This document shows, piece after piece, positions 1-15,459 of a stretch of 47,119 nucleotides of DNA. The first letter of the stretch is position 1, and each line of letters opens with the position of its first letter. A model generated the notes under the pieces. It worked only from the letters and a program-made list of their open reading frames with translations, was not told the DNA's origin and searched no databases. A program made the position numbers and the translations under genes. Source of the stretch: a virus; the IMG/VR virus record IMGVR_UViG_3300009409_000727, positions 1-47,119 of that record. One strand, given 5' to 3'.

Positions 1-640
1 CTATTTCTATCATGGCAGGTTGTTCAAAGTTACTTAATAGCTCTAAAAAATGGTTATTCCATGCATGGCGTTCTTCGTATACTGTACCTTTATTAACATG
101 TATGATACCTATTCTACAGCTAGGGCATTGTAAGTTGCAACTAGCATCTATAGCAAGGTTAATCCAATATATGTATTTGTAATCGTTTGGTTGCCATATC
201 TTAGTGCGTCCTATTCCTTCACGGCCAAGCTCAGGTCCATCTACTATTTTACCATTATCATCATATATAAACCATACATCTTCTTCCTTTACTGGGCCGC
301 AATCTCCTATACTGCAAAACTTAAACGTACTACCTTTCTCAGTACTGGCTTGTAATTTTCGCGCCACATCGTTAGTCCATATATCTTCTAATTTATTAAA
401 GTCAGTTATATGTCCAACAGGGTACGGTAAAAAAGCCGCGCATTGGCATACATAGCAATAGCCACGTAAGTCTATCGTTAAGGAAAGTTGTGGGTTATAG
501 CATTTAAAGTCTAATGGTTCTAATGCACGTTGTGGTCTATTCTTTATATTATGTGCTATAGTACTATGTACATTCTTATGTAGTGGAGTTTTCTTACCTA
601 CTGTGGGCGTATTTTTTCCGAATAACGGGTTATTAAGCAC
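1..640 (-). CDS. Radical SAM protein with N-terminal cysteine domain (partial, C-terminus outside window)
   Basis: The open frame starts at GTG 640-638 and runs off the left edge, leaving about 213 codons. The start is supported by an AGAGGAAA ribosome-binding site just upstream and by an 8-base overlap with the end of the preceding gene (stop 635-633). The radical-SAM motif is CNLQCPSC (Cys168, Cys172, Cys175 from this start), the CX3CX2C set that binds the SAM-cleaving [4Fe-4S] cluster. An N-terminal cysteine-rich segment (Cys47, Cys62, Cys65, Cys67, then Cys109 and Cys114) holds YPVGHI followed by KLEDIW, resembling the PLGNL-LEEIW signature of twitch/SPASM domains. It is the most divergent of the eight radical-SAM genes here, and the GGEP region is not reached. 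Substrate unknown; it is the last visible gene of the operon. Confidence 0.85.
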   Translation of the reverse strand, partial: MLNNPLFGKNTPTVGKKTPLHKNVHSTIAHNIKNRPQRALEPLDFKCYNPQLSLTIDLRGYCYVCQCAAFLPYPVGHITDFNKLEDIWTNDVARKLQASTEKGSTFKFCSIGDCGPVKEEDVWFIYDDNGKIVDGPELGREGIGRTKIWQPNDYKYIYWINLAIDASCNLQCPSCRIGIIHVNKGTVYEERHAWNNHFLELLSNFEQPAMIEI

Positions 641-1982
641 GGAATTTCCTCTTTAATAATCTATAATTGTAACCAATAAGTTCCGCTAAACGTGGGTCAA
701 CGTCATGTAATTTTTCGCGTCGCATCCAGTCAACCTTAAAGATTTGATCCAATAGGTAGCTCTTATCGTGTTCTGGGTCGTCTACCTTATGCGTATACAT
801 GTAGTCCACAATGCTCTTAATCTGTGTAAGGAACTCGTCTCGTAGTTTAAACGCCGTTAAGCGGTCCACAGCATTCCAGTTCCAATGTAATAAGCCGTAT
901 GCTATCTCATCCTTAGCATCGTCGGGTAGTATACTAATGTTAAAGTGTCCGGGTTGATGCATTAAGTTTAAGTACCATGTATCCAAGTTTTCTATATGAC
1001 GTACCCATTCCTGTAACTTAATTAAACTGTTTATGTTAAACAAGTTAATGGTAGTGCATATTTCTGTCGTCATGTTGGGTAGTTTATTATTGCATATATA
1101 GTTTATATTATAGTTAACCTCATCCCAATTAGCACCATAACGTTGGTATTCAAACTTTTTCTCTGTATCGTCTATACTAAAGGATGCTTTAACACCTTTA
1201 AAGTGTGGCCATATGTTCTCTAATGCGTGTATAGGTAACTGTGTTCCATTAGTATTGTAGTGTACATATATGTTCTTAGCATATCCATCCTTAACTGCTT
1301 TCTCTAATACTTCGAAGTGTTCATTAATAAGCCAAGGTTCGCCTCCAGTAAACTCTAGGTGTACTACGTTGGGTAATATATCTTCTAAGTTACTCCAGAA
1401 CGCATCGTTTGTACGTGGCCACTGTCCATCCTTTTGCCACTTATATGCTTGTAAGTCTTTAATATCTTTCTTTTGTACCCCTTCGAACTTAACTGCAATG
1501 TCCATTTCATCCTGGGCCCACTTACTACTACTCATAGGACCGCATATGCGACACTTTAAGTTACATATTGTACCTAACTTTAAGTCCAAATAAACTAAAT
1601 TTTTATCAGTTACCTCATTAGTAAACACATAATCTAACTCAGGATACTTTTGTGAGAACTGTTCTGCCCATACTAATCTCTTACTAGTAATGCCAGTATC
1701 TTCTTCGTCCCAGCATTTTTTACAGTTAGTAGGCTTTTTACTGTCTAGGAAGTCTTTCCGCATTTGTTTCATATGTGTACTATTAAACGCATCCTTTAAA
1801 GTACATGTAGATAAGTTATATGGTTTGTTATTATCGTCTAATACTGGACCTTCAGTCATACAACATGGCTTAACATCTCCTATAGCGGATGCCTCTAAGT
1901 GTATAAACGGTAAGTAGCATAGAGTGGGTATAGCTTTAAATGCTGGATTACGTATACGTCCTAAGTCGTCTTTGGTAGCCAT
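633..1982 (-). CDS. N-terminal-twitch radical SAM protein (pair A, short member)
   Basis: A 449-residue radical-SAM enzyme. The N-terminal twitch-like domain has Cys22, a CC pair at 40-41 and CxxC at 87-90, expected to hold an auxiliary Fe-S cluster. The catalytic CNLKCRIC follows (Cys140, 144, 147), and FTGGEP (about 211-216) is the usual SAM-binding GGE motif. Placing the auxiliary domain before the radical-SAM barrel matches the family NCBI calls twitch domain-containing radical SAM protein (from memory). The C-terminus has R-x-E-K-L-x-D-V-D-P-x-L. It is clearly paralogous to the gene just upstream (YNTNGTQLPIHA and YQRYGANWD occur in both). ATG 1982 overlaps the upstream stop by 22 bases, so translation is probably coupled. 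The reaction and substrate cannot be read from sequence. Confidence 0.9.
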   Translation of the reverse strand: MATKDDLGRIRNPAFKAIPTLCYLPFIHLEASAIGDVKPCCMTEGPVLDDNNKPYNLSTCTLKDAFNSTHMKQMRKDFLDSKKPTNCKKCWDEEDTGITSKRLVWAEQFSQKYPELDYVFTNEVTDKNLVYLDLKLGTICNLKCRICGPMSSSKWAQDEMDIAVKFEGVQKKDIKDLQAYKWQKDGQWPRTNDAFWSNLEDILPNVVHLEFTGGEPWLINEHFEVLEKAVKDGYAKNIYVHYNTNGTQLPIHALENIWPHFKGVKASFSIDDTEKKFEYQRYGANWDEVNYNINYICNNKLPNMTTEICTTINLFNINSLIKLQEWVRHIENLDTWYLNLMHQPGHFNISILPDDAKDEIAYGLLHWNWNAVDRLTAFKLRDEFLTQIKSIVDYMYTHKVDDPEHDKSYLLDQIFKVDWMRREKLHDVDPRLAELIGYNYRLLKRKFRA

Positions 1983-3625
1983 AATTGAGCCATTTCTTTA
2001 TAATCGTATTGTAGTACTGACGCTAACCATGGGTCAATGTCTTGTAAGTTTTCTTTTCTTAAGTAATCGTGTTTATATATTTTACGCCGCGCTTTCGCGC
2101 GAAGAACCGTGAGATCTATATTGTGACTCGCATCCGGGTCAATTATCACATTTGAATTCATATACTCAACAACATTTAATATATTATGGTTAAATGCATC
2201 TTGTAAACCGTATCCTGTCGTGTGTGATGGTAAAAGCCAATTGTAGTTAGTTAAACTATGTTCTATGCTTGCCTTAGCTCTGTCTGGTAACAAACTTATA
2301 TTTAAATATTCTGGGGAATGTAATAAGTTTATATACCAATACGACTTGAGATTACTAATCTCAGGAGCTTCCATAAAGTTTGGGAGTGTTCTTAACCAAC
2401 GATGTATGTCTGGTAAGTTCATAATATTTAATATGTTTACTGTAGTAGTAACTTCCATGTATACATTGTCTGATTTATTGTTTAACATATAAGTTATATT
2501 GTTATGTACATCATCCCAGTTAGCACCGTATCGTTGATATTCATAACGTTTGCCTACATCATCAATGCTAAATGATAGTCTAACTGAGTTAAACTGTGGC
2601 CAAAGGTTCTCTATAGCATGTATAGGCAATTGTGTTCCATTCGTATTATAACTAAGATGTATGTTTTTAGCCAAGCCATCATCAACTATTTGTTGTATTA
2701 ACTTAAACTGTTCTTGTATTAATAAAGGTTCTCCCCCAGTAAATTCTAAGTACTTGAGGTTTGGCAATACATTTTCTGATATATCGTTCCAAAAGTTTTT
2801 ATTCTCGTTAGGCCAATTGCCTGATTTTAATCGTCTATACGGAGCCATTGTTTTAGTTTTAGCTTTAGATATACCGTCAAAAATTATTAATGAATCTATA
2901 TCCTCTTGTGCCCATTTACTACTACTCATGCTATTACATATACGGCATTTTAAATTACATACATTGCCTAATTTTAAATCTACATACTGTATATTTTTCT
3001 CAGTAACTGGGTCAGTGAATAATGTATCAGGTATTGTATCATCTCCACTAAAATGCTCAGCAAAACTAATTCTTTTACTATTAATACCAGCATCTTCTTC
3101 ATCCCAACACCGACTACAATTTGTAGGTTTCTTTCCATTACGAAATTCATCTCGTAATTTATGCATAAATTTTCCTAGGAATGCATCTGTAATAGTATTA
3201 TCTTCTAGATTCCAATGGCCGATATCTTTTTCACCAACCCGTAATAATGGTATATTAAACTCGCGTTCAACGTTGTGTTTTACTAACTTAACATTGTATA
3301 ACATAGATACATCTGATAAGTCCATGAGATTATCTAATTGCATCAGGTCTTTTAATTTTAATAATGCTTCACTCTTTTCACCTGGTAACCAGTCTTGCGT
3401 ACCATCACTATCAATATCATCTAATAATTCTGATAACCTCTCTGGCGCAATTTCAGAATAATCACGCAGTATAGCACCAGTGGCCATACAACACTGTTTA
3501 CATTCACCAGTCGTAGCTGCTTCTATATGCATAAAAGGCAAATAACATAACGTTTGTATCTCTTTAAATATAGGAGCATTACGTTGTATACGTTTATTTG
3601 CTTCTCTTAATTCTTGTTCGTTCAC
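1961..3625 (-). CDS. N-terminal-twitch radical SAM protein with insertion in the cysteine domain (pair A, long member)
   Basis: About 554 residues from GTG 3625, chosen because GTGA overlaps the upstream stop (TGA 3624-3622). A TTG one codon earlier would add one residue. Catalytic CNLKCRIC lies near residues 223-230 and FTGGEP near 295-300. The auxiliary domain has the same frame as its paralogue (one Cys, a CC pair, then CxxCWDEED), but CC and CxxC are 124 residues apart instead of 46. The extra roughly 78 residues are acidic and leucine-rich (about 50-135) with no motif I recognise. The gene looks more AT-rich than its paralogue: a 60-base sample at 2881-2940 has 17 G/C, against 28 at 1501-1560. 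Function unknown. Confidence 0.9.
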   Translation of the reverse strand: MNEQELREANKRIQRNAPIFKEIQTLCYLPFMHIEAATTGECKQCCMATGAILRDYSEIAPERLSELLDDIDSDGTQDWLPGEKSEALLKLKDLMQLDNLMDLSDVSMLYNVKLVKHNVEREFNIPLLRVGEKDIGHWNLEDNTITDAFLGKFMHKLRDEFRNGKKPTNCSRCWDEEDAGINSKRISFAEHFSGDDTIPDTLFTDPVTEKNIQYVDLKLGNVCNLKCRICNSMSSSKWAQEDIDSLIIFDGISKAKTKTMAPYRRLKSGNWPNENKNFWNDISENVLPNLKYLEFTGGEPLLIQEQFKLIQQIVDDGLAKNIHLSYNTNGTQLPIHAIENLWPQFNSVRLSFSIDDVGKRYEYQRYGANWDDVHNNITYMLNNKSDNVYMEVTTTVNILNIMNLPDIHRWLRTLPNFMEAPEISNLKSYWYINLLHSPEYLNISLLPDRAKASIEHSLTNYNWLLPSHTTGYGLQDAFNHNILNVVEYMNSNVIIDPDASHNIDLTVLRAKARRKIYKHDYLRKENLQDIDPWLASVLQYDYKEMAQLWLPKTT

Positions 3626-4869
3626 CAATCAAACTCCGGGAATGTTTCTTTAAAATTTTCGCTACGTATGCCATCTAATTGTGTAGTTAATCGTTTAAAC
3701 TCATCTAACAATGCACTATTACTTGGTTGTTTTATAAAGTTAATAGCACTTTGGTAACCGTTGGTTGCACGTTGTAATGAATCTAATGGAGAGATATAGT
3801 CTATATGCGCCTGATACTTTTCTATAACTAGTTCTTTATAACTCTCAGGTAAATTATCTATACGATAGTGTGGCGGATTCATTAGTATATTAATATTAAA
3901 GTCTTGAGCCTTTATAAATCCTTTGTTAATCCAATTACGGTGAAAGTCTGGCATATGTAAACTGTTTAGAATGCTTAATGTACAACTAATATAGAAGTCA
4001 ACGTTAGGACAAATGCGTAACATCTCTTCTCTATTACGTTCCGTTTGTTCCCAATCAGTTTCCTTTCGTATATATTCCCCACGATCACCCATACCATCTA
4101 ATGATGCGCCTATGCTAACACTATCAAATAATTTCCACATGTCTAATACATTGTGTTGTTTAAATTTTAACTCGCTGAAGTTAGTATTATAAATTAACTT
4201 AACATCGAAACGCTCTTGCTTTATTAGTTCTTCAATTATATTCCAGTGCTCAACCATCATTAAGGGTTCGCCACCAGCAAAGTATATCTGTTCTACGTAT
4301 GGTATATGGCGTTTAGCTTCATTATAGAAGTTCTTATCATCACTACAATGTATTACTTTAGGATGATCTGGCTTACTACCATGCAATGCTTCATAGTCTT
4401 GGTACCAATTGGAACTAAACAATGGCCCACATGTTCTGCAACGGAAGTTACATAGGTTACTAAACCGAACATCCCAGTATACTATCTCAAACTCTGGATC
4501 CATACTGCGAGCCTTTGCTATATGGTGTCCGAAATGTTTATTCGCTGATACCCGGCCACTCATAAAGCCATTCTTATCTTGTTCATAACACTTAGTACAC
4601 TCTTGCAATGCATTACCGTTAACCATTCTATTACGTATCTCCACCATGCGCTCACTATGCCAAATCTCTTCTAGAGTATTGTCGTTTAGATTACCGAGTG
4701 GCATATCCATATCACTCATACAGCATAGGTGAACAGTACTGTCAGGGTAGGCGTGTATATGCGTCCATGGGTACATACAAAAGGTTGGATTCTCTGTTAA
4801 TACCAATTGGTCATATATTGGTAAATCTTCTAACTTAACCTTTAACGGCCGCTTATCATTATAGTCCAT
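3622..4869 (-). CDS. N-terminal-twitch radical SAM protein (pair B)
   Basis: A 415-residue protein. The N-terminal domain shows the clearest twitch/SPASM pattern of the set: Cys31 before PWTHIH, CC at 49-50, PLGNL-x-x-x-TLEEIW at about 57-70, then CTKC at 91-94. The radical-SAM site is CNFRCRTC (Cys140, 144, 147) followed by GPLFSSNW, and FAGGEP lies near 197-202. The C-terminus ends with R-x-E-N-F-x-x-x-F-P-x-F, shared by other members. It is a close paralogue of the gene immediately upstream. ATG 4869 overlaps that gene's stop by 11 bases. Family membership is certain; substrate is not. Most characterised SPASM/twitch enzymes act on peptides or sugars, but their auxiliary domain is C-terminal, so transferring that function would be a guess. 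Confidence 0.92.
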   Translation of the reverse strand: MDYNDKRPLKVKLEDLPIYDQLVLTENPTFCMYPWTHIHAYPDSTVHLCCMSDMDMPLGNLNDNTLEEIWHSERMVEIRNRMVNGNALQECTKCYEQDKNGFMSGRVSANKHFGHHIAKARSMDPEFEIVYWDVRFSNLCNFRCRTCGPLFSSNWYQDYEALHGSKPDHPKVIHCSDDKNFYNEAKRHIPYVEQIYFAGGEPLMMVEHWNIIEELIKQERFDVKLIYNTNFSELKFKQHNVLDMWKLFDSVSIGASLDGMGDRGEYIRKETDWEQTERNREEMLRICPNVDFYISCTLSILNSLHMPDFHRNWINKGFIKAQDFNINILMNPPHYRIDNLPESYKELVIEKYQAHIDYISPLDSLQRATNGYQSAINFIKQPSNSALLDEFKRLTTQLDGIRSENFKETFPEFDW

Positions 4870-6178
4870 AGTTTTTCCATAATCCTTTTAACTCTGGGAA
4901 TACTCTATGGAAATTCTCATTACGGAACCTATCATACTTGTTTATTTCGTCTTGAAACTTTGGTATAAGGTCCGTTCTATCTTCACTATACATAAAATTG
5001 ATTGCACTCTCAAAGCCATTAGTAGCTCGTTTAATATCGTCAGCGTCTGCTATACTACTTATGTGTTCTTCGTATAGTGATTTAACTTCTGCCTTCATAT
5101 TCTCTGGTAGTATACTGAGTCTATAATAATCCGGACCTTGTAATATGTTAACATGAAAGTCGTATACGCCTATAAGGCCACGCTCTACCCAATCGTTATG
5201 GAAGTCTGGTAGGTGGTATGCGTTTAATACTTGTAATGTGGCACTGGGAAAAAAGTCTACGTCAGGGCACACGTCAAGCATGTCGTAACGGTTCTTTAGT
5301 ATAGTATCCCATACCGTTCCCTTACGTATATACTCTGCTCTATCACCCATACCGTCTAATGATGCGCCTATGCTAACGTCATTGAATAACTTCCACATAT
5401 CGAATACAGAGCGTCCTTTATACTTGACTTCAGAGAAATTTGTGTTATATACTAACTGAACATCAAACATTTCGCGTTTAACTAACTCATCCATTATACG
5501 CCAATGCTCTTCCATCATTAAAGGTTCACCACCGGCCCAGTATATCTTATGTAAGTTGTCTATATAAGGAGCGACCATGTCCCAGTTAAGTTGTTTATTG
5601 CCACGAGTGTAATCAATCTTTAATGAGTCGCCGCCATACATAGCATTATACTCGTTTACCCAATTAGAACTAAACGCTGGCCCACACATACGGCATTTAA
5701 AGTTACATAGATTGGTAAAGCGAACGTCCCAATAGATTGGATTAACAGTAGAGCTACCATCAGGAGTGGTGGTGATATCCTTTATACTATATGCAAAGTT
5801 TCTATTACTCTCATTACGGAGACTATAGAAGCCATTGCGTTCCTTCTCATAACACTTAACGCATTCCTTACTGGGTCTATCGTTAAGCATATTGAGTCGC
5901 ATAGTCCTATAGGCCTTATTATTCCATACCTCTTCCAATGTATTGTCGCGTAGATTACCTATAGGCTCATCAGGGTCGGACATACAGCACGGGTAAGCAT
6001 TACCATCGGACCATCCGTGTATATGGACCCACGGTAGCATACAGAAGTTATTACTATTAGTGAGTAAATCATGCTCCTCTATAGTAAAGAAGTCTATAGG
6101 CAACGATTGTTTATTACGATCCAATAACAGTGTAGTAGTGTTAAACGGTGTATCTTTGTTAAGGTAACCTTTATCCAT
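4859..6178 (-). CDS. N-terminal-twitch radical SAM protein (pair B)
   Basis: A 439-residue paralogue of the next gene downstream. Auxiliary cysteines: Cys46 (before MLPWVHIH), CC at 64-65, CVKC at 106-109, with EPIGNL and TLEEVW between them. Catalytic CNFKCRMC is at Cys158, 162, 165 followed by GPAFSSNW, and WAGGEP is at about 214-219. The C-terminal R-x-E-N-F-x-x-x-F-P-E-L is near the end. The start overlaps the stop of the CmoA-like gene by 8 bases (ATGGATAA), a layout repeated across this operon and typical of translational coupling. Compared with its paralogue it has a longer linker between the auxiliary domain and the barrel (about 130-147). Function unknown beyond radical SAM chemistry. 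Confidence 0.92.
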   Translation of the reverse strand: MDKGYLNKDTPFNTTTLLLDRNKQSLPIDFFTIEEHDLLTNSNNFCMLPWVHIHGWSDGNAYPCCMSDPDEPIGNLRDNTLEEVWNNKAYRTMRLNMLNDRPSKECVKCYEKERNGFYSLRNESNRNFAYSIKDITTTPDGSSTVNPIYWDVRFTNLCNFKCRMCGPAFSSNWVNEYNAMYGGDSLKIDYTRGNKQLNWDMVAPYIDNLHKIYWAGGEPLMMEEHWRIMDELVKREMFDVQLVYNTNFSEVKYKGRSVFDMWKLFNDVSIGASLDGMGDRAEYIRKGTVWDTILKNRYDMLDVCPDVDFFPSATLQVLNAYHLPDFHNDWVERGLIGVYDFHVNILQGPDYYRLSILPENMKAEVKSLYEEHISSIADADDIKRATNGFESAINFMYSEDRTDLIPKFQDEINKYDRFRNENFHRVFPELKGLWKNYGL

Positions 6179-6860
6179 CTGCTTCTTTAATACAGAGCAT
6201 ACCTACAAAATTAAAATTTTGCCAAAATGTTTCGACTATTTCAAAACCCGCAAGCCTGCACATTTCATCTAATTCGTCTATAGTTAAAGGTTCCATCATA
6301 TGTCGTAGAGTTTGTTCCTTATCTAACAATTCCTCTGCACTATAAAACTGACGTTTATAATCGTAATAACAAAACTGCATCATTTCTTGTAACTGTGCGT
6401 GTTCACTATAAATCTTTTCAGCAAATATAAATGCCCCACCCTTCACTAGTGAGTCATAAACATGTTCAATAATAACCTGTCTATTTCTTTTTGGTACAAA
6501 TTGTAATGAAAATATTGATGTGGTGAAACAGTTATTCTCTGCTTCCGCTGTCCACTCAAAAGACCTAACATCTGTTTTATAAAACTTTAGATTTTTTTCA
6601 TCTATTAATTCTGAGAAAAAATCTTTCTCAATTTCAATACCCTTATACTCTACCTCGGGTGCAAACTTATTATTCTGTAATTTCATCGCCTTCAAAAGTT
6701 TTCCTGTTGAGCAACCGATGTCAACTACTGTGCAACCATCTTCTACAAAGTATTCTGAAAACTTTAGAATGTCACTCCAAAGATTAGAATACCCACGAAT
6801 AGATTGGTCGATATGTTCATCGAACCCTTCTTCTGCTTGTGCAAATGTAAATTTAGTCAT
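6171..6860 (-). CDS. CmoA-like class I SAM-binding protein (carboxy-SAM synthase homologue or methyltransferase)
   Basis: 229 residues from ATG 6860, chosen because ATGACTAA overlaps the upstream stop by 8 bases and GAGG lies about 10 bases before it; ATG 6875 is the longer alternative. Similarity to E. coli CmoA extends end to end by eye: FDEHID and GYSN near the N-terminus, SAM motif I VVDIGCSTG (45-53), SLQF (118-121), GGAFIFAEK (141-149), DYKR (167-170) and F-W-Q-N-F-N-F (212-218). CmoA converts SAM plus prephenate to carboxy-SAM for tRNA wobble-uridine modification. Its carboxylate-binding arginine (Arg199 in E. coli, from memory) falls opposite Glu182 here, so carboxy-SAM synthesis is doubtful and ordinary methyl transfer or another SAM analogue is possible. 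No CmoB was seen. It sits between radical-SAM genes in one operon, suggesting shared chemistry. Confidence 0.8.
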   Translation of the reverse strand: MTKFTFAQAEEGFDEHIDQSIRGYSNLWSDILKFSEYFVEDGCTVVDIGCSTGKLLKAMKLQNNKFAPEVEYKGIEIEKDFFSELIDEKNLKFYKTDVRSFEWTAEAENNCFTTSIFSLQFVPKRNRQVIIEHVYDSLVKGGAFIFAEKIYSEHAQLQEMMQFCYYDYKRQFYSAEELLDKEQTLRHMMEPLTIDELDEMCRLAGFEIVETFWQNFNFVGMLCIKEADG

Positions 6861-8217
6861 GGGGTAATGCCTCATACCATAGTTTTAAGTTAGGGAAAGT
6901 ATCTGTAAAGTTCTTACCTCTACGCTCGTCGTATTGCTTATAGAAGTGATAGAAGTCGTTCTTTAATGCAGCTGGTTCGAACGTATCACTGTGTGGTTTC
7001 TCTACAACGTTTAAGTAGTCTAATAGACGCAGTATGTGGTTGCGTTCCATCTCATGTAGTTGCTTTTCGTTTAACACGAGCCAATACGCTAAGTCGTCTC
7101 TGTATGATTGTAGTATGGGTCGCGGTAGCACTAACGGTGATTGGAATGATGGAAACCTTAATATGTTTAAAGTAAACGTAGGAAAGTCCTTGCCGTATAC
7201 ATCTTTAAAGCTCATTACATGGTCTAAGAACTTAGGCAACGAGTCTAAGCATAAACTGTTAACAGTACACATCATATGAAAGCCTTCTAAGTTACCGTCT
7301 CTACACACACGATGGCAGTTATTAACCCAAGTATCCCACTCTAACCCGTCTCTAATATACTCTGCTTGTGCGCCAAATGCTTCACAAGATGTATATAGGT
7401 GTAAATGCGGAACATGTTGTGCGTTCTCTATAAAGCGATCTATAAGATCGTCTTTAGCACCTAAGTTAGAGTTAATAGCGAGCCGCATGTCGGACTTCTT
7501 ATCCGTTGTTTTAAACCAATCGAACAACTTCCATATCTCGCCTGCCATCATAGGTTCACCACCAGTAATGCGTAGTTCGTCTAACGTGTCGTGTAGCTCT
7601 AACTCCCACCATTTCCAAAAGGCTTCTACGTATGGGTTAACCTCATCGTGCTTATACAACTGTGCTTCGTTGTGTTCGTGTGTAAAATGGTTACGTCCAT
7701 CTGACTTTAACTGTGTATACTCACCGTTGTTCTTTATATCTTTAACCCAAGTACTACTAAAGGCGGGATTGCAATAAGAGCAACTAAAATTACAAGTCCT
7801 ATCAAAGGCAATTTCAAGTGTACGTAAAGCAAAATTCTCTGTAGGTTCTTCATGTTTAACATAATGTACATCCTCTTCGTCGTATATAACAGACTTGTGG
7901 ACACGATCGGAGATAGCATCGGGTCCAATGTCTTCTATCTTCCAGCAATACTCACAGCCTGGTGGACGTTCGCCCGCAAGCATTTGTGTTCTATCCTGCT
8001 TCTTTTGCTGTGTGTTGTGTATAGCGGCAGGGTTTGATGCTAGTTCTTTAATGTCTATCTTATGTGCAGGCGGATGGTGGCAACTGGTAGTCATACCACT
8101 GCCTAACCATATAGTAGCATTGCGCCATTTAGCCATGCAGAAGGATGGACTTACTGTGTCGTTAAGCCATCGCTTAATGTCTAAATCTGTTTCCCTTCCT
8201 GGCGTTCTTAACGTCAT
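6853..8217 (-). CDS. N-terminal-twitch radical SAM protein (pair C)
   Basis: A 454-residue protein. The auxiliary domain differs from pairs A and B: after SPSFCMAKW (Cys27) the CC pair is replaced by C-H-H-P-P (Cys46), then CEYC at 88-91. The catalytic motif is CNFSCSYC (Cys142, 146, 149) followed by NPAFSSTW, and ITGGEP is at about 217-222. The C-terminus carries RGKNF-x-x-x-FP-x-L. Its paralogue is the gene at 9606. The start forms an ATGA overlap with the SufT-like gene. The CHHP change probably alters how the auxiliary Fe-S cluster is bound; histidine ligation is an inference. Substrate unknown. Confidence 0.92.
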   Translation of the reverse strand: MTLRTPGRETDLDIKRWLNDTVSPSFCMAKWRNATIWLGSGMTTSCHHPPAHKIDIKELASNPAAIHNTQQKKQDRTQMLAGERPPGCEYCWKIEDIGPDAISDRVHKSVIYDEEDVHYVKHEEPTENFALRTLEIAFDRTCNFSCSYCNPAFSSTWVKDIKNNGEYTQLKSDGRNHFTHEHNEAQLYKHDEVNPYVEAFWKWWELELHDTLDELRITGGEPMMAGEIWKLFDWFKTTDKKSDMRLAINSNLGAKDDLIDRFIENAQHVPHLHLYTSCEAFGAQAEYIRDGLEWDTWVNNCHRVCRDGNLEGFHMMCTVNSLCLDSLPKFLDHVMSFKDVYGKDFPTFTLNILRFPSFQSPLVLPRPILQSYRDDLAYWLVLNEKQLHEMERNHILRLLDYLNVVEKPHSDTFEPAALKNDFYHFYKQYDERRGKNFTDTFPNLKLWYEALPHD

Positions 8218-8549
8218 AGTATTCCCATCTCTAGTTTAGCATGTTCTGGTATCATCATAGGACCCCAAGGTGGGTCAAACGTCATATCTACTTTAATGTT
8301 ATTAAGACTACCAACCTCACATGCTTCATTTACTTGTTGATATAACATGTCGCCAACAGGGCAAAACGCCGATGTTAACGTCATTGTTACTGTTAAGTTT
8401 AAATCCTCTGTAATATCTATATCATATATTAAACCTAAGTCGTATATATTGATGTTTATTTCAGGATCATATACATGTCGTAAGTTGTTTACTATCTGAT
8501 CTATTATAGGATCAGTGCCTTGTTCATATGTTGTTGCGTGTGTTTTCAT
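8214..8549 (-). CDS. SufT/MIP18-family (DUF59) Fe-S cluster assembly protein
   Basis: A 111-residue protein, nearly all one MIP18/DUF59 domain. It has DPE followed by YDLGLIY (28-42), a strand-rich middle, the conserved Cys63 in AFCPVGD and DPPWGP (92-97). Family members (SufT, PaaD, eukaryotic MIP18/CIA2) help load or mature [4Fe-4S] proteins. It overlaps both neighbours by ATGA and is flanked by radical-SAM genes. The natural reading is that it helps deliver Fe-S clusters to the many [4Fe-4S] enzymes of the operon, which together would need two clusters each. That role is inferred from context; the family call is strong. No other Suf or Isc gene is in the window, so host machinery would supply the scaffold. 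Confidence 0.9.
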   Translation of the reverse strand: MKTHATTYEQGTDPIIDQIVNNLRHVYDPEININIYDLGLIYDIDITEDLNLTVTMTLTSAFCPVGDMLYQQVNEACEVGSLNNIKVDMTFDPPWGPMMIPEHAKLEMGIL

Positions 8550-9613
8550 AATATACCTGTTATATTACGATGTTTGTTTAAAATGCTATCTTGTAATAAG
8601 AATTCATCGTATATTTTTTTGTCAAACTTGTATTCTATTAAACTTTTTATAATATAATCTACATGTTTCTTAAATGTAATATCTTTATACGCATTAGTAT
8701 TTTTTATTTTATGCATGTTTACTAGTGCATCATCTTTAAATGGAAAATTAGTAAAGTAATATATTTTAGGATCTTCCAAAATATTTAATAAAATAACACT
8801 ATCGCTATAATTTTCTTCTATCCATTCTACTAATAAATGTAAATTACTTACATTATAGTTCATTACAGTTATATTAAAACATATTGATTTACTAAATCCC
8901 TTATATATTTCCAGGTTTTTAATAAATTTTTCCCACTTATTAGGGTATCGTATATGTTCATATACTTCATCATATCCATCACAACTAGCAATAATGTGTA
9001 TGTTATTAAATAATTTTAATTTATCTATTAAGTTTTTACTGTTGGTAGAGCAATTAGTATTAAATTGTAACTTGACATCTAATTGATCTTGTTGTATGCA
9101 TTTATCTAATAAGCCTTCTAGTTCAGGATTTAAAAATGGTTCTCCTCCTGCCATATATAAATGCTCTATTGTATCTATATTAATAATATCTAATGTAGCA
9201 ATTGAGGGAGATTTGATATAGTCTCGCGCCAATGCTACCCATTCTTTTTGTTTAGTAGTACTATTAATAGGATTACACATACGACAACTTAAATTACAAG
9301 TGTCATCATTGCGTAAGTCGTATGATACTAATTTTATTTCGCCATTGGCGAGAACATTGCCGTCAGTATTAGCATGTTGACGAGGACTTACTCTATTCTT
9401 TTCTTCCAAGTCCCAGCAATAACTACAAGCGTCAGGTTTATCTCCATATGACATAGCATGACGCACGTTAGTCAATTGTTCATTACGGTACCAATTAAAT
9501 GTATTATCATATTTCTCTACAGGTTTTGCCCAACAGCAAGGGCGTATATCATTGTATTGATCTATATGTAAATGACTAAATGCTTTAACACAATACGTAT
9601 CACTCCTACCCAT
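8546..9613 (-). CDS. N-terminal-twitch radical SAM protein, short and AT-rich
   Basis: At 355 residues this is the shortest complete radical-SAM protein of the set. Auxiliary cysteines: Cys8, CC at 26-27, CSYC at 63-66. Catalytic CNLSCRMC is at Cys106, 110, 113 and MAGGEP at 154-159. The N-terminus is trimmed (the first Cys is at residue 8), and the C-terminus ends at HRNITGIL, where relatives continue through an NF-x-x-x-FP motif. Composition differs sharply from neighbours: 60-base samples at 8701-8760 and 9001-9060 have 13 and 11 G/C, against 26 at 8041-8100 and 25 at 9721-9780. This suggests a separate, perhaps recent, acquisition. The start overlaps the upstream stop by 8 bases, so it is well integrated in the operon. 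Confidence 0.9.
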   Translation of the reverse strand: MGRSDTYCVKAFSHLHIDQYNDIRPCCWAKPVEKYDNTFNWYRNEQLTNVRHAMSYGDKPDACSYCWDLEEKNRVSPRQHANTDGNVLANGEIKLVSYDLRNDDTCNLSCRMCNPINSTTKQKEWVALARDYIKSPSIATLDIINIDTIEHLYMAGGEPFLNPELEGLLDKCIQQDQLDVKLQFNTNCSTNSKNLIDKLKLFNNIHIIASCDGYDEVYEHIRYPNKWEKFIKNLEIYKGFSKSICFNITVMNYNVSNLHLLVEWIEENYSDSVILLNILEDPKIYYFTNFPFKDDALVNMHKIKNTNAYKDITFKKHVDYIIKSLIEYKFDKKIYDEFLLQDSILNKHRNITGIL

Positions 9614-11039
9614 GTGACAACCTCTTGCACTCTTCCCACCAGTCTATCATCTCTGGGAATGTTTTTATAAAATTAGTACCACGACGGTTGTCGTGCTCGT
9701 TAAAAAAGCGATAAAAGTCTGCTTTACAGTTGTCTACATACATTGGATCTAACTTACTACCTTCCTGCCACCATGCTAAGTCTCTATGCATACGTTGAAT
9801 TTCATAATCTTTAAAGCCTTTAAAGCGAGATTTCTCGTCTTCCATGTTATCTAACATCCAACATGTGTTCTCTTCGTGTATATCTTGGTATGGTTCAGGC
9901 AATAACTGTATGCTTTGCCAAGCAGGCTGTCGTAATAGCGGTGTATCAAACCATACACGTTGATAAGTTTCACTATATGCTTGTCGCAAACCGTGTATAT
10001 AGCCTAATAACTTATCCATTCCTGTAATACTTAAATTGTTATATGTTATAATAAACGTTAAAGAGTTTCTGTACGGAACTTCCGTTAAGTATGTGTTGAT
10101 ATTATCGCACATCTTATTAAAGTCTAACCCATTACGTATATACTCGGCTTGTTCCAGCCAACTGTCTACACTAACGTATTGCATAAAGTGTTCTACTTTC
10201 TCTTCCAAGCATATGCGTTTAACTTTTTCTAAGTATTTGTCAAACAATTTGTTGTCTACTGGACTAAAGTTACTTGTAACGTTTACATGTAAGTCGCTTT
10301 TGGGGTTGTCTATAATGTAATCAAATACTTTATATGTATTCTTATCCATCATAGGCTCACCACCAGTCATACGGAAATGCTTTAAGTCTTTATATAAGTC
10401 AGGCCACCATTCCCAAAACGCTTCTACATAAGGATTATACTTGCTATGTGGTATACAAGGGTTAATCTCAAAGTGTTCAGGTGCGTTATGTGGTTTAGAT
10501 GTAGGCCAGGCACCGTGCTGTTTCATTTCTTTATCCCACGCAGTACTAAACTGTGGACTACAGTAACTACATTTTAAGTTACAGTTGTGATTAAAGTTTA
10601 CTTCTACATAACGTGGGTTCTTATCTGCATCCCACGGAGCATTAACTACATCGTCAAAGTCCATTGCGGCCCACGGCTCACCACTTCTGTAATGCCTATC
10701 GCTTAAATGTCCAGTATCTTCTATGTTCCAACAGTACTGGCACTCGCTAGGGCGCACGCCTTCTAACATAAGTTTACGCATTTCTTTCTTATGTTGAGTG
10801 TTATGTAATGCTGATGGAGTGCCTAACTCCATTTTATGTAGCGGTGGGTGATAACAACTGTTGTTTAATCCAGTTGGTAAATGTAAACTAACTTGGTTCC
10901 ATTTCGCAAGACAAAAGGATGGCGATACAGAGTCTAACTGTACTTTAATATCCTCGGCACTTTTATAGAAATCTGACTTAAACTTACCATCTTTAACTTC
11001 TATTTTATCGCCTTTATTATCCTTGTATAGTTGATTCAT
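9606..11039 (-). CDS. N-terminal-twitch radical SAM protein (pair C)
   Basis: A 477-residue paralogue of the gene at 6853. It has about 40 extra N-terminal residues before SPSFCLAKW (Cys43), then C-Y-H-P-P (Cys62), CQYC (100-103), catalytic CNLKCSYC (Cys153, 157, 160) and MTGGEP (224-229). The C-terminal R-R-G-T-N-F-x-x-x-F-P-E-M is conserved. As in its partner, the usual CC of the auxiliary domain is C-[HY]-H-P-P. ATG 11039 overlaps the upstream membrane-protein gene by 23 bases. It is the first radical-SAM gene of the cluster in the direction of transcription. Radical-SAM assignment is certain; substrate is unknown. Confidence 0.92.
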   Translation of the reverse strand: MNQLYKDNKGDKIEVKDGKFKSDFYKSAEDIKVQLDSVSPSFCLAKWNQVSLHLPTGLNNSCYHPPLHKMELGTPSALHNTQHKKEMRKLMLEGVRPSECQYCWNIEDTGHLSDRHYRSGEPWAAMDFDDVVNAPWDADKNPRYVEVNFNHNCNLKCSYCSPQFSTAWDKEMKQHGAWPTSKPHNAPEHFEINPCIPHSKYNPYVEAFWEWWPDLYKDLKHFRMTGGEPMMDKNTYKVFDYIIDNPKSDLHVNVTSNFSPVDNKLFDKYLEKVKRICLEEKVEHFMQYVSVDSWLEQAEYIRNGLDFNKMCDNINTYLTEVPYRNSLTFIITYNNLSITGMDKLLGYIHGLRQAYSETYQRVWFDTPLLRQPAWQSIQLLPEPYQDIHEENTCWMLDNMEDEKSRFKGFKDYEIQRMHRDLAWWQEGSKLDPMYVDNCKADFYRFFNEHDNRRGTNFIKTFPEMIDWWEECKRLSHG

Positions 11040-11340
11040 GGTTATGGCTACTATCCATTTCGTGATGGTTCTTATTTAATGAATAAAATATTACTGTTGC
11101 TATTACAGCGCCTACAATTACTCCTTGTGTAAATCGTTTAATAGTTTTCCAATTACGTGTTCGTTGTTCTGCACTAAAGTTTTGCCACTTCTTGTATCCT
11201 TTCCAAAACTTCCACATTGAGTATACAGTTAAAATTACTGCTATACCTATGAGGTAAGGTGTGTAAGGACTATCTATAGATAATATACCTACACTAATTA
11301 ATAAGGCGATTAAGCCATTTACCCAGCAAATTGGACACAT
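11017..11340 (-). CDS. Small membrane protein with CPIC N-terminus and His-rich C-terminus
   Basis: 107 residues, not recognised. It starts with MCPIC and has three likely membrane spans (about 8-22, 28-45 and 73-88). Between spans 2 and 3 lies a basic, aromatic stretch (WKFWKGYKKW). The tail is rich in histidine and acid residues (HHEMDSSHNHE, about 92-102). The CPIC plus His-rich tail could bind a metal, but this is only a pattern. The start codon shares its A with the stop of the Lys-rich mini-ORF (TAATG), and the 3' end overlaps the first radical-SAM gene by 23 bases. The operon position suggests a link to the radical-SAM cluster. Confidence 0.7.
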   Translation of the reverse strand: MCPICWVNGLIALLISVGILSIDSPYTPYLIGIAVILTVYSMWKFWKGYKKWQNFSAEQRTRNWKTIKRFTQGVIVGAVIATVIFYSLNKNHHEMDSSHNHESTIQG

Positions 11341-11503
11341 TACTTAGGCTTCTTCGGTTTTTTCTTTTCTTTCTTAGGTTTGTCTCTGTTTTTACCTTCC
11401 ATCCTTGCCTCCCTGTTTTTCTAGTTGTATCTACTTCTCCAAACTCTCCCATGCTTTTACCGTGTAGTTTAGTTCTACTAAAGTTATAAAGGTCATGGTT
11501 CAT
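11294..11503 (-). CDS. Small hypothetical protein, C-terminal half doubtful
   Basis: ATG 11503-11501 shares its A with the stop of the upstream glycosyltransferase (TAATG), which supports this start. The first half (MNHDLYNF, then GKSMGEFGEVD) looks like real coding sequence. The second half (RKKRKNRR, then SLSNVSNLLGKW) runs 47 bases into the membrane-protein gene and reads like out-of-frame sequence. The 20-residue Lys-rich frame in the same DNA fits the junctions better. I therefore trust the start but not the end. Function unknown. Confidence 0.45.
   Translation of the reverse strand: MNHDLYNFSRTKLHGKSMGEFGEVDTTRKTGRQGWKVKTETNLRKKRKNRRSLSNVSNLLGKWLNRLIN
11340..11402 (-). CDS. Lys/Pro-rich mini-ORF (20 residues)
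   Basis: ATG 11402 to TAA 11340 encodes 20 residues, about half lysine, with repeated K-K-P-K. A strong Shine-Dalgarno GGGAGG sits 5 bases before ATG, and the stop overlaps the next start as TAATG, the junction used elsewhere here. Both suggest it is translated. It could instead be the true C-terminus of the upstream ORF reached by a -1 frameshift or after a base error in AAAAA near 11416-11420. No function is known. Being basic and next to a radical-SAM cluster, it could be considered as a peptide substrate, but nothing more supports that. Confidence 0.45.
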   Translation of the reverse strand: MEGKNRDKPKKEKKKPKKPK

Positions 11504-12429
11504 TACCAACCCTCTATTTGTCGTATTACATCCAATTCTTGTATCATTATATCATAGTTTGTGTGCTTGCTGTAATGTGTTTTAAAGAACTTACTTGCTT
11601 CAGCATCCATTTCGCATATAGGCATACCTAATTTGTTCTGTAATATTTCTCCTATACGCTCTGCTTCATCCCATGGGTTTTGCATTTCGTATTCTCCATG
11701 ATATATCTCATTGAGGTATGTAAAGTCTCTTACATTAACATAATCCCAATCAGTAAGCATAGTTAAATACGTGCCTAAACGTGAGCCGTATATACTCCAT
11801 ATGCCGTGCTCAACATCGCGTCCTACAGTTTGCCATATACATAAGTTATCTAAATTGCGAGCATGTATTTGTTCCTCAAATGTTTTTAAGTCAGGTTTAG
11901 TTCCTTTGTTTAAAACCATTTTAACACCTTCTCTAAACCCAGCACGCCATGCGTGTAATGCTGAACCATTTGGGTATGTTGTGCTATAGCAGTTATGCAT
12001 TGGTCTATAGTTGTCGTCAAAACAAAACTCTACTAATGTTTCATCACTACCATCAGTGTTCTCATGTGTAGTCATATTTAATACAAAGTCCACAGGCCAA
12101 CAACTTAACCCACCATTGCCATACATTAGTCCGTTTATAATATTACGACCCTTCCATCTAAACACACAATGTTTAGTAACATCATCCAATGTTAATTGTA
12201 AGTTAAAAAACTCTGGGTCGGGTAAGTTATCACCGTCTATTAAAACAAATCGTCCTGAAGGAGAAGCTCTAGCCGCGGCCTTGTGCGCGGCATCTGATCC
12301 TTCTACACCATCAATGTGTATTGCCCAAGGCACCATGTTTAGTATCTTGGCCCAAAACTCATCCTTTTGCGGCTCATCATATGTTAGGTATATACAATCT
12401 AAGTCAGCAATATCAACTATTTCAGTCAT
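11503..12429 (-). CDS. GT-A fold glycosyltransferase (GT2-like)
   Basis: 308 residues from ATG 12429 (MTEIVDIADL). This start is chosen because AGGAAGGA lies immediately upstream and it overlaps the previous stop; the open frame continues to 12537 but that part looks non-coding. Glycosyltransferase features: G-x-x-G-S-D-A-A-H-K-A-A-A (about 41-53), then VLIDGDNLPDPEFF (62-75) with the metal/nucleotide-sugar DxD at Asp65-x-Asp67. This matches family 2 GT-A enzymes. A later W-R-A-G-F-R-E-G segment may be the acceptor side. It would transfer a sugar from a nucleotide donor to an unknown acceptor. It is one of three glycosyltransferases between the operon promoter and the radical-SAM genes. Confidence 0.7.
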   Translation of the reverse strand: MTEIVDIADLDCIYLTYDEPQKDEFWAKILNMVPWAIHIDGVEGSDAAHKAAARASPSGRFVLIDGDNLPDPEFFNLQLTLDDVTKHCVFRWKGRNIINGLMYGNGGLSCWPVDFVLNMTTHENTDGSDETLVEFCFDDNYRPMHNCYSTTYPNGSALHAWRAGFREGVKMVLNKGTKPDLKTFEEQIHARNLDNLCIWQTVGRDVEHGIWSIYGSRLGTYLTMLTDWDYVNVRDFTYLNEIYHGEYEMQNPWDEAERIGEILQNKLGMPICEMDAEASKFFKTHYSKHTNYDIMIQELDVIRQIEGW

Positions 12430-12721
12430 ATTCCTTCCTAAACATATCAAGACAGATTCGATAGTTAATACATTTTGGATAAAATGAGTTTGTTTGTTCG
12501 TATGTTCTCGCAAGTAATTCTTTTCTACATATAGCATCCATACGTAAATTAGGATTAAAGTTCTGGAATATACGATGTGTAGTCATTATATCTTGCGCCG
12601 CACCCCGACACTCTCCTTCCGAATGCATTCGTATTTGATACCAAACATCATTCTCACCTTGGTACTGTCCACTAAATGGACCTACACTTAACATTATCAT
12701 TAACAACCATGGTTCCCACAT
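12422..12721 (-). CDS. Small hypothetical protein with hydrophobic N-terminus and four cysteines
   Basis: 99 residues from ATG 12721; AAGGAAATAACA just before it supports this start over the longer frame to 12754. The N-terminus WEPWLLMIMLSVGPFSGQYQ is hydrophobic and could be a signal peptide or anchor, though it lacks a basic n-region. The rest has four well-spaced cysteines (in GECRG, AICRK, PKCIN, RICLD) that could form disulfides if exported. No family recognised. It overlaps the downstream glycosyltransferase start by 8 bases. Confidence 0.65.
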   Translation of the reverse strand: MWEPWLLMIMLSVGPFSGQYQGENDVWYQIRMHSEGECRGAAQDIMTTHRIFQNFNPNLRMDAICRKELLARTYEQTNSFYPKCINYRICLDMFRKEYD

Positions 12722-12731
12722 TGTTATTTCC

Positions 12732-12959
12732 TCAAGGGTTAAATGCCTTCTCAAACTTATTTGCTTCTGTTTTTGTCTTAAACGATACTCTTACACCTAA
12801 TGCATACACAGTGTCATCTAATATATATTCCTTTTTGCAATTTTCTTCACACCATGTTTTAACGTTTTTATAAATTTTAATTGCTTTTTTAAACTCTTTA
12901 TTTTTAATTACCTCACCCTTCTTTATTTTCCAAGGGAATTTAGCATGTTTTACAATCAT
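12732..12959 (-). CDS. Small hypothetical basic protein
   Basis: 75 residues, lysine-rich (K-I-K-K-G-E, K-E-F-K-K-A-I-K), with a WCEENC motif near 36-41. No family recognised. ATG 12959 forms an ATGA overlap with the upstream stop, and the downstream gene follows after 10 bases with its own ribosome-binding site. It is AT-rich relative to the adjacent glycosyltransferase. It is probably cytoplasmic, with no membrane segment. Confidence 0.65.
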   Translation of the reverse strand: MIVKHAKFPWKIKKGEVIKNKEFKKAIKIYKNVKTWCEENCKKEYILDDTVYALGVRVSFKTKTEANKFEKAFNP

Positions 12960-13390
12960 TTTTTCTCCTGTTGTAATTGATAATAATTTTCATCCTTATT
13001 GAATTTTACTTTATCAGCAGTAATAACTTGTTTAATAATCCTATGATCCTTGTCTGTAACATATACAGGCAAGTCTGGATCCAATTCTGTTGCGTGTGTT
13101 ACTTTAGTATATTTTCTTAAACGGTTGTATACATCATGTTTAACTGGCTCCAACTTACCATTAACTATTACCCAATCAGTAATATGATTAGTATCTAACC
13201 ATTTAGAAGGTATTTTAATGTGACTACGTAATTCATCTACATATGTAGATGCTTCATATATAGTGCCGTTATCATGATGATATAAGCAGTAATCTGCTTT
13301 AGCAACATCTAGATCAACTTGAGTCTCAATTGCTTCTATTAAATCGTCTAGGCCTTTTATACTTTTGTTTAATGGTTTAATTCCTTTCAT
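12956..13390 (-). CDS. Hypothetical protein
   Basis: 144 residues with mixed alpha/beta character and no motif I can name. It contains DYCLYHHDNGTIYEAS near residues 33-48 and ends with a charged, glutamine-rich tail. It overlaps the upstream glycosyltransferase by 14 bases and the downstream ORF by ATGA, so it is part of the same polycistron. The absence of hydrophobic stretches suggests a soluble protein. Nothing in the sequence fixes a function. Confidence 0.7.
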   Translation of the reverse strand: MKGIKPLNKSIKGLDDLIEAIETQVDLDVAKADYCLYHHDNGTIYEASTYVDELRSHIKIPSKWLDTNHITDWVIVNGKLEPVKHDVYNRLRKYTKVTHATELDPDLPVYVTDKDHRIIKQVITADKVKFNKDENYYQLQQEKK

Positions 13391-14240
13391 AGTATTCTAT
13401 TGTTTTGTCTGCTAGGTACTCTTTACATTCTGCACCATGCACTGGATATATTTGTGGCTCTACACCTAATATTAATCCAACATCATCACTATATTCTATG
13501 TTAATAATGTCTTCTATCTTATGTGACTCTGGCCAACCTAGTATACTGTTCTTCATATGTACAAATGTTGGATAGTCTAACACATTGTTTGTATGCGTGT
13601 ACTCTGCTTCTTGTAATACTAATGCTATTGCCAACGCAACATCAGTTGTAGGCTTTTCATCCCTACAGTTCTTTAATTGCTCTGATACTTCATCCCAATT
13701 TTTATAAACCCATTTTAATGTTTTAAATAGGTTTAGACTATCTTCACCATAACGGAAGTACATAAACCCACTATAAGTGTTAGGTAAGTTGTTGATATCA
13801 AAGAGTTTTCTGTATTTGCGTGAGTTAGATATAGAACCGTCTAGTTTGCGAACATTAGTCGCAATCATTACTTCCTGCTCACGCATAAATGTCCACCAAT
13901 GATCTATGTTGCGTGTGAACACAATATCGCAATCTAACTTAACTGTCTCTTTAAACGGCGTTATTGACCACGCCTTCCATTCATTACCTAGCTTCCATGA
14001 GTCATCCTTACTATCATCGCCCCACGGAATGTCTATTACATAGTCAAATACTTTGTAATGCTTTTCTACTAATTGTTCTTTAGTTGGTTTATCTACAGCG
14101 ATAGCAAACTTGTTTATAGTTTGTGTTGCTTTTAGACTTAATCCACAGGCATATGCTAGTTTTAAATAGTCAGTACTATCGTTATTTTGAACAAATGTGA
14201 AATATCCAATTTGTTCATCATGCTCTTTGGTGCGTTTCAT
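13377..14240 (-). CDS. GT8-like GT-A glycosyltransferase
   Basis: 287 residues. The N-terminal strand GYFTFVQNN resembles the start of nucleotide-sugar-binding folds, and V-K-L-D-C-D-I-V-F gives a DxD motif (Asp103-x-Asp105) as in GT-A families such as GT8. Near the C-terminus, PQIYPVHGAECKEYL may form the acceptor/donor side. It resembles the next gene upstream in length, DxD position and the preceding I-T-P-[FY]-x-[EK]-T segment, so the two are probably distant paralogues. The start forms an ATGA overlap with that gene. Donor and acceptor unknown. Confidence 0.6.
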   Translation of the reverse strand: MKRTKEHDEQIGYFTFVQNNDSTDYLKLAYACGLSLKATQTINKFAIAVDKPTKEQLVEKHYKVFDYVIDIPWGDDSKDDSWKLGNEWKAWSITPFKETVKLDCDIVFTRNIDHWWTFMREQEVMIATNVRKLDGSISNSRKYRKLFDINNLPNTYSGFMYFRYGEDSLNLFKTLKWVYKNWDEVSEQLKNCRDEKPTTDVALAIALVLQEAEYTHTNNVLDYPTFVHMKNSILGWPESHKIEDIINIEYSDDVGLILGVEPQIYPVHGAECKEYLADKTIEYYERN

Positions 14241-15423: not shown

Positions 15424-15430
15424 ATATAAT

Positions 15431-15459
15431 ATTATACATGAATAACTTTATTATGTCAA
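15431..15459 (-). promoter_or_regulatory. Consensus sigma-70-type promoter of the accessory operon
   Basis: On the minus strand TTGACA (15459-15454), exactly 17 bases, then TATAAT (15436-15431): a perfect match to the bacterial housekeeping consensus. Seven bases separate the -10 box from ATG 15423, so the predicted transcription start coincides with the start codon. No later gene boundary down to the left edge shows a comparable promoter, so this may drive the whole 15-kb unit. Confidence 0.85.

Follow-up and report, generated by a model that had tools for sequence, protein, structure and literature searches.

A conserved series of N-terminal-twitch radical SAM enzymes with glycosyltransferase-like genes in T4-like phages, and its counterparts in Bdellovibrionota-type bacteria

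We analysed the whole 47,119-base stretch of the virus record IMGVR_UViG_3300009409_000727 (hereafter the window), a fragment of a T4-like phage genome in which an initial annotation had recorded eight adjacent genes for radical S-adenosylmethionine (rSAM) enzymes with an N-terminal twitch/SPASM domain. This observation stands and is stronger than first stated: the genes belong to a module that is conserved and intact, that has a predicted promoter of its own and that has a counterpart in bacteria. The predicted transcription unit starts about 4.4 kb upstream of the eight-gene run, near position 15459, and takes in three genes of the glycosyltransferase (GT) type. The description of a CmoA homologue and a SufT-like protein as the only companions of the rSAM genes was thus too narrow, since the three GT-like genes and several small genes head the same unit.

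From 15.4 kb to the window end, the minus strand carries in this order up5, GTb, GTa, a gene at the up4 position, up3, up2 and up1, then two small genes, and finally rSAM A, B, SufT, C, the CmoA-like gene, D, E, F, G and H. According to the open reading frame list, the ten adjoining genes from rSAM A to H overlap one another by 4–23 bases, in agreement with the overlapping run initially annotated. The longest open reading frame of up1 reaches 12537, with a start near 12429 in most aligned relatives. Model confidence is given below as the predicted local distance difference test (pLDDT). The features are the following:

15431..15459, minus strand: predicted sigma-70-type promoter TTGACA-17-TATAAT, 12/12 consensus positions, -10 element ending 7 bases before the ATG of the first gene
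15073..15423, minus strand: up5, first gene of the unit, small conserved protein of 116 aa, family found in 109/123 groups
14237..15073, minus strand: GTb, putative glycosyltransferase without a Pfam match of its own, in a common similarity cluster with GTa
13377..14240, minus strand: GTa, putative glycosyltransferase, weak PF03407 match (17.7 bits, cut-off 22)
12956..13390, minus strand: up4-position gene, small protein of 144 aa, in its own cluster of 5 groups
12732..12959, minus strand: up3, small protein of 75 aa, 10 groups
12422..12754, minus strand: up2, small protein of 110 aa, nearest relatives only (1 group)
11503..12429, minus strand: up1, GT-A-fold glycosyltransferase-like protein from its predicted structure (pLDDT 93.2)
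11017..11340, minus strand: small protein of 107 aa, no blastp relative among the compared loci
9606..11039, minus strand: rSAM A, N-twitch radical SAM enzyme, core class A (NF033640 309.5 bits; pLDDT 93.3)
8546..9613, minus strand: rSAM B, N-twitch radical SAM enzyme on a long branch, accessory (NF033640 222 bits)
8214..8549, minus strand: SufT/PaaD-like DUF59 protein of iron-sulphur (Fe-S) assembly, accessory (PF01883)
6853..8217, minus strand: rSAM C, core class C (NF033640 323 bits)
6171..6875, minus strand: CmoA-like methyltransferase-fold protein with Glu at the CmoA Arg199 position (TIGR00740, alignment to 4gek)
4859..6178, minus strand: rSAM D, core class D/E (NF033640 397.3 bits)
3622..4869, minus strand: rSAM E, core class D/E, paralogue of D (NF033640 400.5 bits)
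1961..3628, minus strand: rSAM F, paralogue within core class G, with an N-terminal domain insertion (NF033640 314 bits)
633..1982, minus strand: rSAM G, core class G (NF033640 341.6 bits)
2..640, minus strand: rSAM H, N-SPASM radical SAM enzyme cut by the window end (PF13186 match, CNLQCPSC)

Intactness and co-conservation of the radical SAM enzymes

Against the NF033640 family (N-terminal twitch rSAM; cut-off 170 bits), the proteins A to G score between 222 and 401 bits. The low score of H (16.7 bits) is explained by the gene being incomplete at the window end; its SPASM match is above the cut-off, and its full-length relatives measure 378 and 417 aa in two loci (L012 and L020). As NF033640 is above the cut-off in 0/14 control genomes, chance is excluded for the seven matches, and the annotation of eight adjacent twitch/SPASM enzymes is borne out.

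In an alignment of 15 proteins, the 14 invariant columns correspond to four N-terminal Cys, the CX3CX2C motif with an Asn, GGE and three other residues. For a broader survey of cysteines, 547 unique proteins were aligned and reduced to the 502 with residues at every key column. All seven cluster Cys are kept in 498 of these 502 proteins, the four exceptions each altering the second twitch Cys. The three radical-SAM Cys are present in 502/502 and the G, G and E of GGE in 501, 502 and 500 of the 502, while the four Cys of the auxiliary cluster, N-terminal to the core and invariant in 15/15, are kept in 498/502. Judged from these alignments, the enzymes keep both cluster sites and the SAM-binding motifs, and the retention of the seven Cys rules out a reading as inactive remnants with lost cysteines in relatives. 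The predicted structure of rSAM A aligns to radical-SAM enzymes with Z 10–14, i.e. SkfB at 14.2 (root-mean-square deviation 3.4 over 231 residues), BlsE at 13.6, SuiB at 12.9 and MoaA at 12.5. Its top Foldseek match is BlsE, a sugar-nucleoside enzyme, and between the rSAM N-terminal domain and the twitch of the aminocyclitol enzyme BtrN there is a match at E 4.4e-8.

Among stretches of viral contigs, 422 candidates encode a relative of rSAM A and at least 513 a relative of up1; the best 80 of the 422 and the best 80 of the at least 513 were retrieved. Because scans with E, A or up1 supplied the phage loci, the family counts given over 123 groups are biased, and only the up1-fetched set was chosen independently of the rSAM genes, its up1 alignment having been taken from module-carrying loci. 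From these loci (L122–L200), 49 non-redundant groups reach at least 9 kb downstream; in them, the classes were called with score thresholds that we set ourselves. Downstream of up1, class A was found in 45 of the 49 groups, C in 43, D/E in 40, G in 37 and D' in 35. The complete order A-C-D/E-G-D' is present in 28 groups; of the others, one displays a swapped pair, one lacks any class and the remainder carry partial sets in order. For this core, the shared order rejects a chance run of unrelated genes, and the nearly fixed arrangement confirms co-conservation in related phages. Four loci (L157, L165, L190 and L192) have up1 with a single N-twitch rSAM gene, which is A-like. In relatives, A, C, D/E, G and D' represent the conserved core; D' would lie past the window end, going by the arrangement in L021. 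The slots between core genes vary, with B and SufT in the window, SufT alone in L011, L020 and L021, and other rSAM genes in L009, L012 and L014. Since several rSAM enzymes are both co-conserved and intact, a multi-step or multi-substrate pathway is implied, as had been suggested at first.

Relatives of rSAM E were identified in 15 viral records, with NF033640 above the cut-off in 15/15. At E ≤1e-40, 6–12 NF033640 matches per record were counted in 15 large virus records (194–457 kb), two of which, G268 and G269, have near-identical matches; at E ≤0.001, a record of 322,647 bases has 16 matches and one of 201,690 bases has 15. From 50,697 phage records, rSAM A matches only two Vibrio phages (22% identity) and up1 has no match. 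The module is therefore common among viral contigs and near-absent from that collection, which points to a common virus–host process unseen in the collection's isolates.

Two arrangements were seen by eye in the phage loci. PurC-, PurE- and GatB/YqeY-like genes lie downstream of the unit in L014, L015, L016, L021 and L022, and lone N-twitch rSAM genes stand amid core phage genes in L023, L027 and L028, for example adjoining clamp-loader-like and SbcC-like genes.

Predicted promoters and accompanying genes

T4-like phages use sigma-70 promoters early and ATAAATA-type promoters late. The consensus that we searched, TTGACA-17-TATAAT, is of the sigma-70 type. Within the first 19 kb of the window, the single 12/12 match lies at 15459-15431, directly before up5. 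Promoters of at least 11/12 precede up5 in 37 of 109 non-redundant groups (12/12 in 17) when counted from -150 to +30, a first count from -90 to +10 having given 30/110. In comparison, such promoters were found at fib1 in 1/112, fib2 in 0/108, up1 in 5/115, the GT genes in 3/327 and in 0.5% of shuffles. The spacer is 17 in 56 of the 61 up5 matches of at least 10/12. The form ATAAATA was derived from k-mers before fib2 and thus picked after inspection of the same data in which it was counted; it occurs at most 60 bases upstream of fib2 in 89/109 groups, of fib1 in 14/113 and of up5 in 1/109, and at 0/115 up1, 1/327 GT and 4/746 rSAM genes. From the recurrence of the sigma-70-type promoter at up5 and of ATAAATA at fib2, it appears that the late virion genes are followed by a separate early-type unit comprising the GT-like and rSAM genes. 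This contrast offers a direct handle on the timing of the unit's expression.

The exact octamer TATAAATA was rejected as a late promoter: the window has one site, at 42973 on the plus strand, versus 13.6 expected in shuffles, a rarity that suggests strong avoidance. This site (42973-42980) sits directly upstream of a gene at 42999 that is gp55-like by eye. In many loci, the -10 element of the up5 promoter ends some 6–7 bases before the ATG, as in a leaderless transcript (15423-15459 in the window), and in L095, L096, L106 and L109 a GC-rich palindrome lies within the -35/-10 spacer.

The structure of up1 was modelled with AlphaFold. Many GT-A chains match residues 3–162 at Z 7.7–9.4, the best (Z 9.4, root-mean-square deviation 3.1, 140 residues) being tied with many GTs and nucleotidyltransferases; among the 50 Foldseek matches listed, all have E ≥1e-3 and a template modelling score <0.33. 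By its model, up1 is thus assigned a GT-A-like fold. Because nucleotidyltransferases score alike and the Foldseek matches are weak, we keep the claim to the fold class, glycosyl transfer being putative. The motif IDGDN, conserved across relatives of up1, is possibly a DxD site.

The small-protein family at the up4 position counts 77 groups. The window's own cluster is separate and weakly related: one of its members matches the profile of the 77-group family (E 1e-5), and the window protein does not. Both this family and that of up5 are conserved over their full length, with about 1.3 Cys on average, which does not support a precursor of a ribosomally synthesised and post-translationally modified peptide (RiPP) in either of them.

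In relatives, a carbamoyltransferase cluster is found near the unit in 37/123 groups (one representative confirmed by Pfam), a NAD-epimerase cluster in 13 groups (the L024 member confirmed), a SAM synthetase cluster in 5 and a cluster of PNP_UDP_1 nucleosidases (phosphorylase superfamily) in 9. Genes for a DegT aminotransferase, GFO/IDH/MocA and PIG-L lie no more than about 20 kb from the unit in L034, L041 and L025, and a 2-oxoglutarate oxygenase accompanies it in some relatives. In the context of L024, a SAM synthetase and a nucleosidase together would match the needs of a heavy SAM user. These neighbours favour sugar chemistry, without proving it.

The CmoA homologue and the SufT-like gene initially placed in the run are indeed there; their importance has to be lowered, as both are judged accessory from their distribution. 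By blastp among 140 locus groups compared, the CmoA-like gene is found in the window only and the SufT gene in 6 groups including the window. The DUF59 protein scores 54.9 bits with PF01883 (cut-off 23.5), below the NCBIfam cut-offs of TIGR02945 and TIGR03406, and a role in Fe-S cluster delivery fits. The CmoA-like protein scores 108.9 bits with TIGR00740 (E 3e-31), below the cut-off of 193, and an alignment to 4gek places a Glu at the position of CmoA Arg199, in a numbering derived from chain length, E. coli CmoA presumably having 247 residues. According to excerpts of PMC3663124, Arg199 of E. coli CmoA forms a salt bridge with the carboxyl of carboxy-S-adenosylmethionine (Cx-SAM). Because Glu takes the place of this Cx-SAM-binding residue, Cx-SAM synthesis is disfavoured, and the protein is more likely a methyltransferase of a different kind. 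Neither CmoX nor CmoY was found among the 20 window proteins scanned, the window being a genome fragment.

No RNA family or tRNA was found. Elsewhere in the window, the gp6-like baseplate protein is nearest to those of Sinorhizobium phage Phosso (38%), Agrobacterium phage Atu_ph07 and Cronobacter phage GAP32, whose genomes each exceed 350 kb. The tail region includes a single open reading frame of 4855 aa (18789-33356), apparently a giant virion protein.

Bacterial counterparts

The enzymes are not confined to phages. A first scan of genome contigs with rSAM D found no relative; a scan with class A gave 14 genomes, 13 of them titled as Bdellovibrionota-type, with 1–19 NF033640 genes each. In a tree of 143 proteins, phage and bacterial members are joined in class C (support 1.0), D' (1.0) and G (0.99), and with weaker support in classes A and D/E. 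All five core classes are present on a single Bacteriovoracaceae contig (L205; 83,861 bases), where one strand carries C, D', G-like, E-like, G, A and C, followed by an additional A-like gene on the opposite strand; its E-like gene is sister to D/E (support 0.77).

From 240 genomes of the Bdellovibrionota phylum, class A was detected in 59, up1 in 14 and both in 12 (hypergeometric P 1.2e-6), G192 and G247 being the two with up1 and without class A. In six loci (L214, L264, L265, L267, L268 and L272), up1 adjoins an N-twitch rSAM gene or is separated from it by one up1-like gene; L265 shows the order GTa, small gene, up1, rSAM. Class A lies near GT2 (L214), epimerase (L217) and asparagine-synthase (L206) genes in Bdellovibrionota-type loci, and no relative of fib1 or fib2 was found by blastp in those examined. 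Seven contigs of metagenome-assembled genomes (MAGs; L201, L202, L204, L210, L212, L218 and L222) carry fib genes and look like phage sequence binned with bacteria. Two of them, L212 and L218 (153 and 335 kb), are phage-like contigs in a Neomarinimicrobiota MAG with up1, A-like and fib genes. A bacterial cluster (L253, L254; G019:C1:745513-774880) has 13 N-twitch rSAM genes in about 30 kb, interspersed with other rSAM genes. The Bdellovibrionota-type bacteria provide a cellular setting where genetics may be feasible.

Candidate functions and known systems

The explanation that we put forward, with slightly less than even confidence, is that of an operon of early type whose products build or tailor a glycan, probably at the surface of the infected cell. 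One transcription unit would join the sigma-70-type promoter, up5, two putative GTs, the small genes, the GT-A-fold up1 and the eight rSAM enzymes. The GT-like enzymes would place sugars, and the rSAM enzymes would carry out consecutive radical steps on the glycan or on nucleotide-sugar precursors, candidates being dehydrogenation, epimerisation, dehydration or C–C bond formation. Auxiliary genes would supply SAM, clear 5'-deoxyadenosine and aid Fe-S cluster insertion. The product would alter the host cell surface, for example to block competing phages, rather than the new virion alone, since the early expression predicted from the promoter suggests a host surface target over the virion only. 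The target is the least certain step, and the glycan itself is favoured as substrate while falling a little short of an even chance. More speculative, though still plausible, is an ancient, undescribed pathway of five consecutive N-twitch rSAM enzymes and GT-A enzymes, shared and exchanged between uncultivated giant phages and predatory Bdellovibrionota, which would modify surfaces by novel chemistry and which phages would express early via a host-type promoter to alter the coat of the infected cell. Radical SAM enzymes perform difficult chemistry, and a conserved series of at least five of them in one operon implies a product beyond the reach of simpler chemistry.

Several observations weigh against this proposal. 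Class A was not called in 4 of the 49 up1 groups (L142, L144, L146 and L162), promoters of at least 11/12 are also found at 43/1160 genes of the mixed class "other" (17 with 12/12) and at 11/746 rSAM genes (5 with 12/12), and the assignment of GTa and GTb as glycosyltransferases is weak, being respectively below the Pfam cut-off and without a Pfam match. Only a minority of relatives, and not the window, have neighbours from sugar pathways. On the bacterial side, the support of the tree is uneven, with several nodes <0.7, 47 Bdellovibrionota genomes have class A without up1, only 5 of the 14 up1 loci include an N-twitch rSAM gene within the short retrieved locus, and no glycan genes were seen by eye near class A in L213, L216 and L256. 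Moreover, most loci have the virion genes fib2-fib1 ahead of the unit (their families are found in 111 and 114 of 123 groups), a position that also fits virion modification, and read-through into the unit from the late promoter is possible. The known twitch/SPASM rSAM enzymes are mostly peptide-acting, and SkfB, a RiPP maturase, ties with BlsE in the structure comparison of rSAM A.

These last points lead to the modification of a phage protein, which we consider unlikely but worth serious attention. The target would be either a small protein of the operon or a protein of the tail, namely fib1, fib2 or the 4855-aa product; the rSAM enzymes would introduce crosslinks, epimerised residues or C-linked groups into it, and it would be glycosylated by the GT-like enzymes. 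The fold neighbours SkfB, SuiB, PqqE and EpeE act on peptides, up1 weakly resembles the peptide S-glycosyltransferases SunS and ThuS (Foldseek E 1e-3 at best; Z 8.3–8.7), and fib2-fib1 lie upstream. However, a separate sigma-70-type promoter heads the unit, in which the late motif seen at fib2 is mostly missing, the up5 and 77-group up4-position families are unlike RiPP precursors, and class A occurs in 59 of the 240 Bdellovibrionota genomes, while the Bdellovibrionota-type loci examined gave no blastp relative of fib1 or fib2. A diffusible small molecule or cofactor, aminocyclitol-like or derived from an amino acid, later attached by a GT and directed by phages and predatory bacteria against competitors or hosts, is rather improbable. 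It would be in line with the origin of BtrN and BlsE in antibiotic pathways and with large bacterial clusters that mix many N-twitch rSAM enzymes, other rSAM enzymes and proteins that look amidinotransferase-like by eye (no Pfam match), whereas in the window's unit we recognised no gene for a scaffold synthase, an exporter or resistance, and gene order and content are tied to the GT-like genes.

There is little likelihood that the genes are unrelated enzymes collected by chance in a hypervariable host-recognition region and acting on separate substrates. The accessory slots do differ among close relatives and more N-twitch genes are dispersed elsewhere in the same genomes, but the core order is common to 28 of the 49 groups, with one swap, and the five classes recur together on the bacterial contig L205. 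We give very little credence to a hypermodification of nucleic acid, in which the CmoA-like and rSAM enzymes would act on phage DNA or tRNA, as CmoA, CmoX and CmoY do on cytosine. The precedent is a phage CmoA that makes Cx-SAM for DNA carboxymethylation (excerpts of PMC12783734), and the window's protein is a CmoA homologue. Nevertheless, Glu aligns with Arg199, the gene is confined to the window among the loci compared, CmoX and CmoY were not met among the scanned proteins, and the unit is located behind tail genes.

The proposed glycan-tailoring operon was finally compared with known systems, on the basis of excerpts of PMC5332604, PMC7029224, PMC7678222, PMC3663124 and PMC12783734. By title and abstract, no conserved N-twitch series and no such enzymes in Bdellovibrio were recognised in the literature searched, subscription papers and preprints being mostly outside its coverage, and the accession NF033640 was not found there. 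This family has in common with seven of the eight proteins an N-terminal twitch followed by the radical-SAM core. NF033640 is a family name and not a pathway, whereas the module spans multiple genes and includes GT-like genes outside the family.

BtrN and BlsE are single enzymes of antibiotic pathways with low identity to the rSAM enzymes described here, and the stretch of BtrN that matches their N-terminal domain is C-terminal. Among cultured phages, related rSAM enzymes of the Vibrio phage KVP40 type (phrog_14086 relatives) share at most 26% identity with E and are mostly one per genome, as 48 places in 39 records indicate.

The T4-like 183-kb ocean virus TARA_ERS488813_N000010 has 12 radical-SAM genes together with paaD (DUF59), ATC, grx and cas4 (PMC5332604), and its paaD parallels the SufT/DUF59 gene found beside many rSAM genes in the window. 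With this virus, a large set of rSAM genes together with paaD was already in print, a qualification to the candidate undescribed system of the initial annotation. The excerpts of PMC5332604, where the rSAM enzymes are treated as Fe-S proteins, make no mention of an operon, of classes of orthologues, of promoters, of a link to GTs or of a counterpart in bacteria. The comparison with this virus is based on its published description. In pelagimyophages, radical-SAM cassettes belong to a host recognition cluster in the hypervariable tail-fibre/glycosyltransferase region, and O-chain modification has been proposed for the GTs (excerpts of PMC7029224). That cassette is variable, whereas the unit described here has a conserved core and is found in other phages, on contigs of up to 457 kb.

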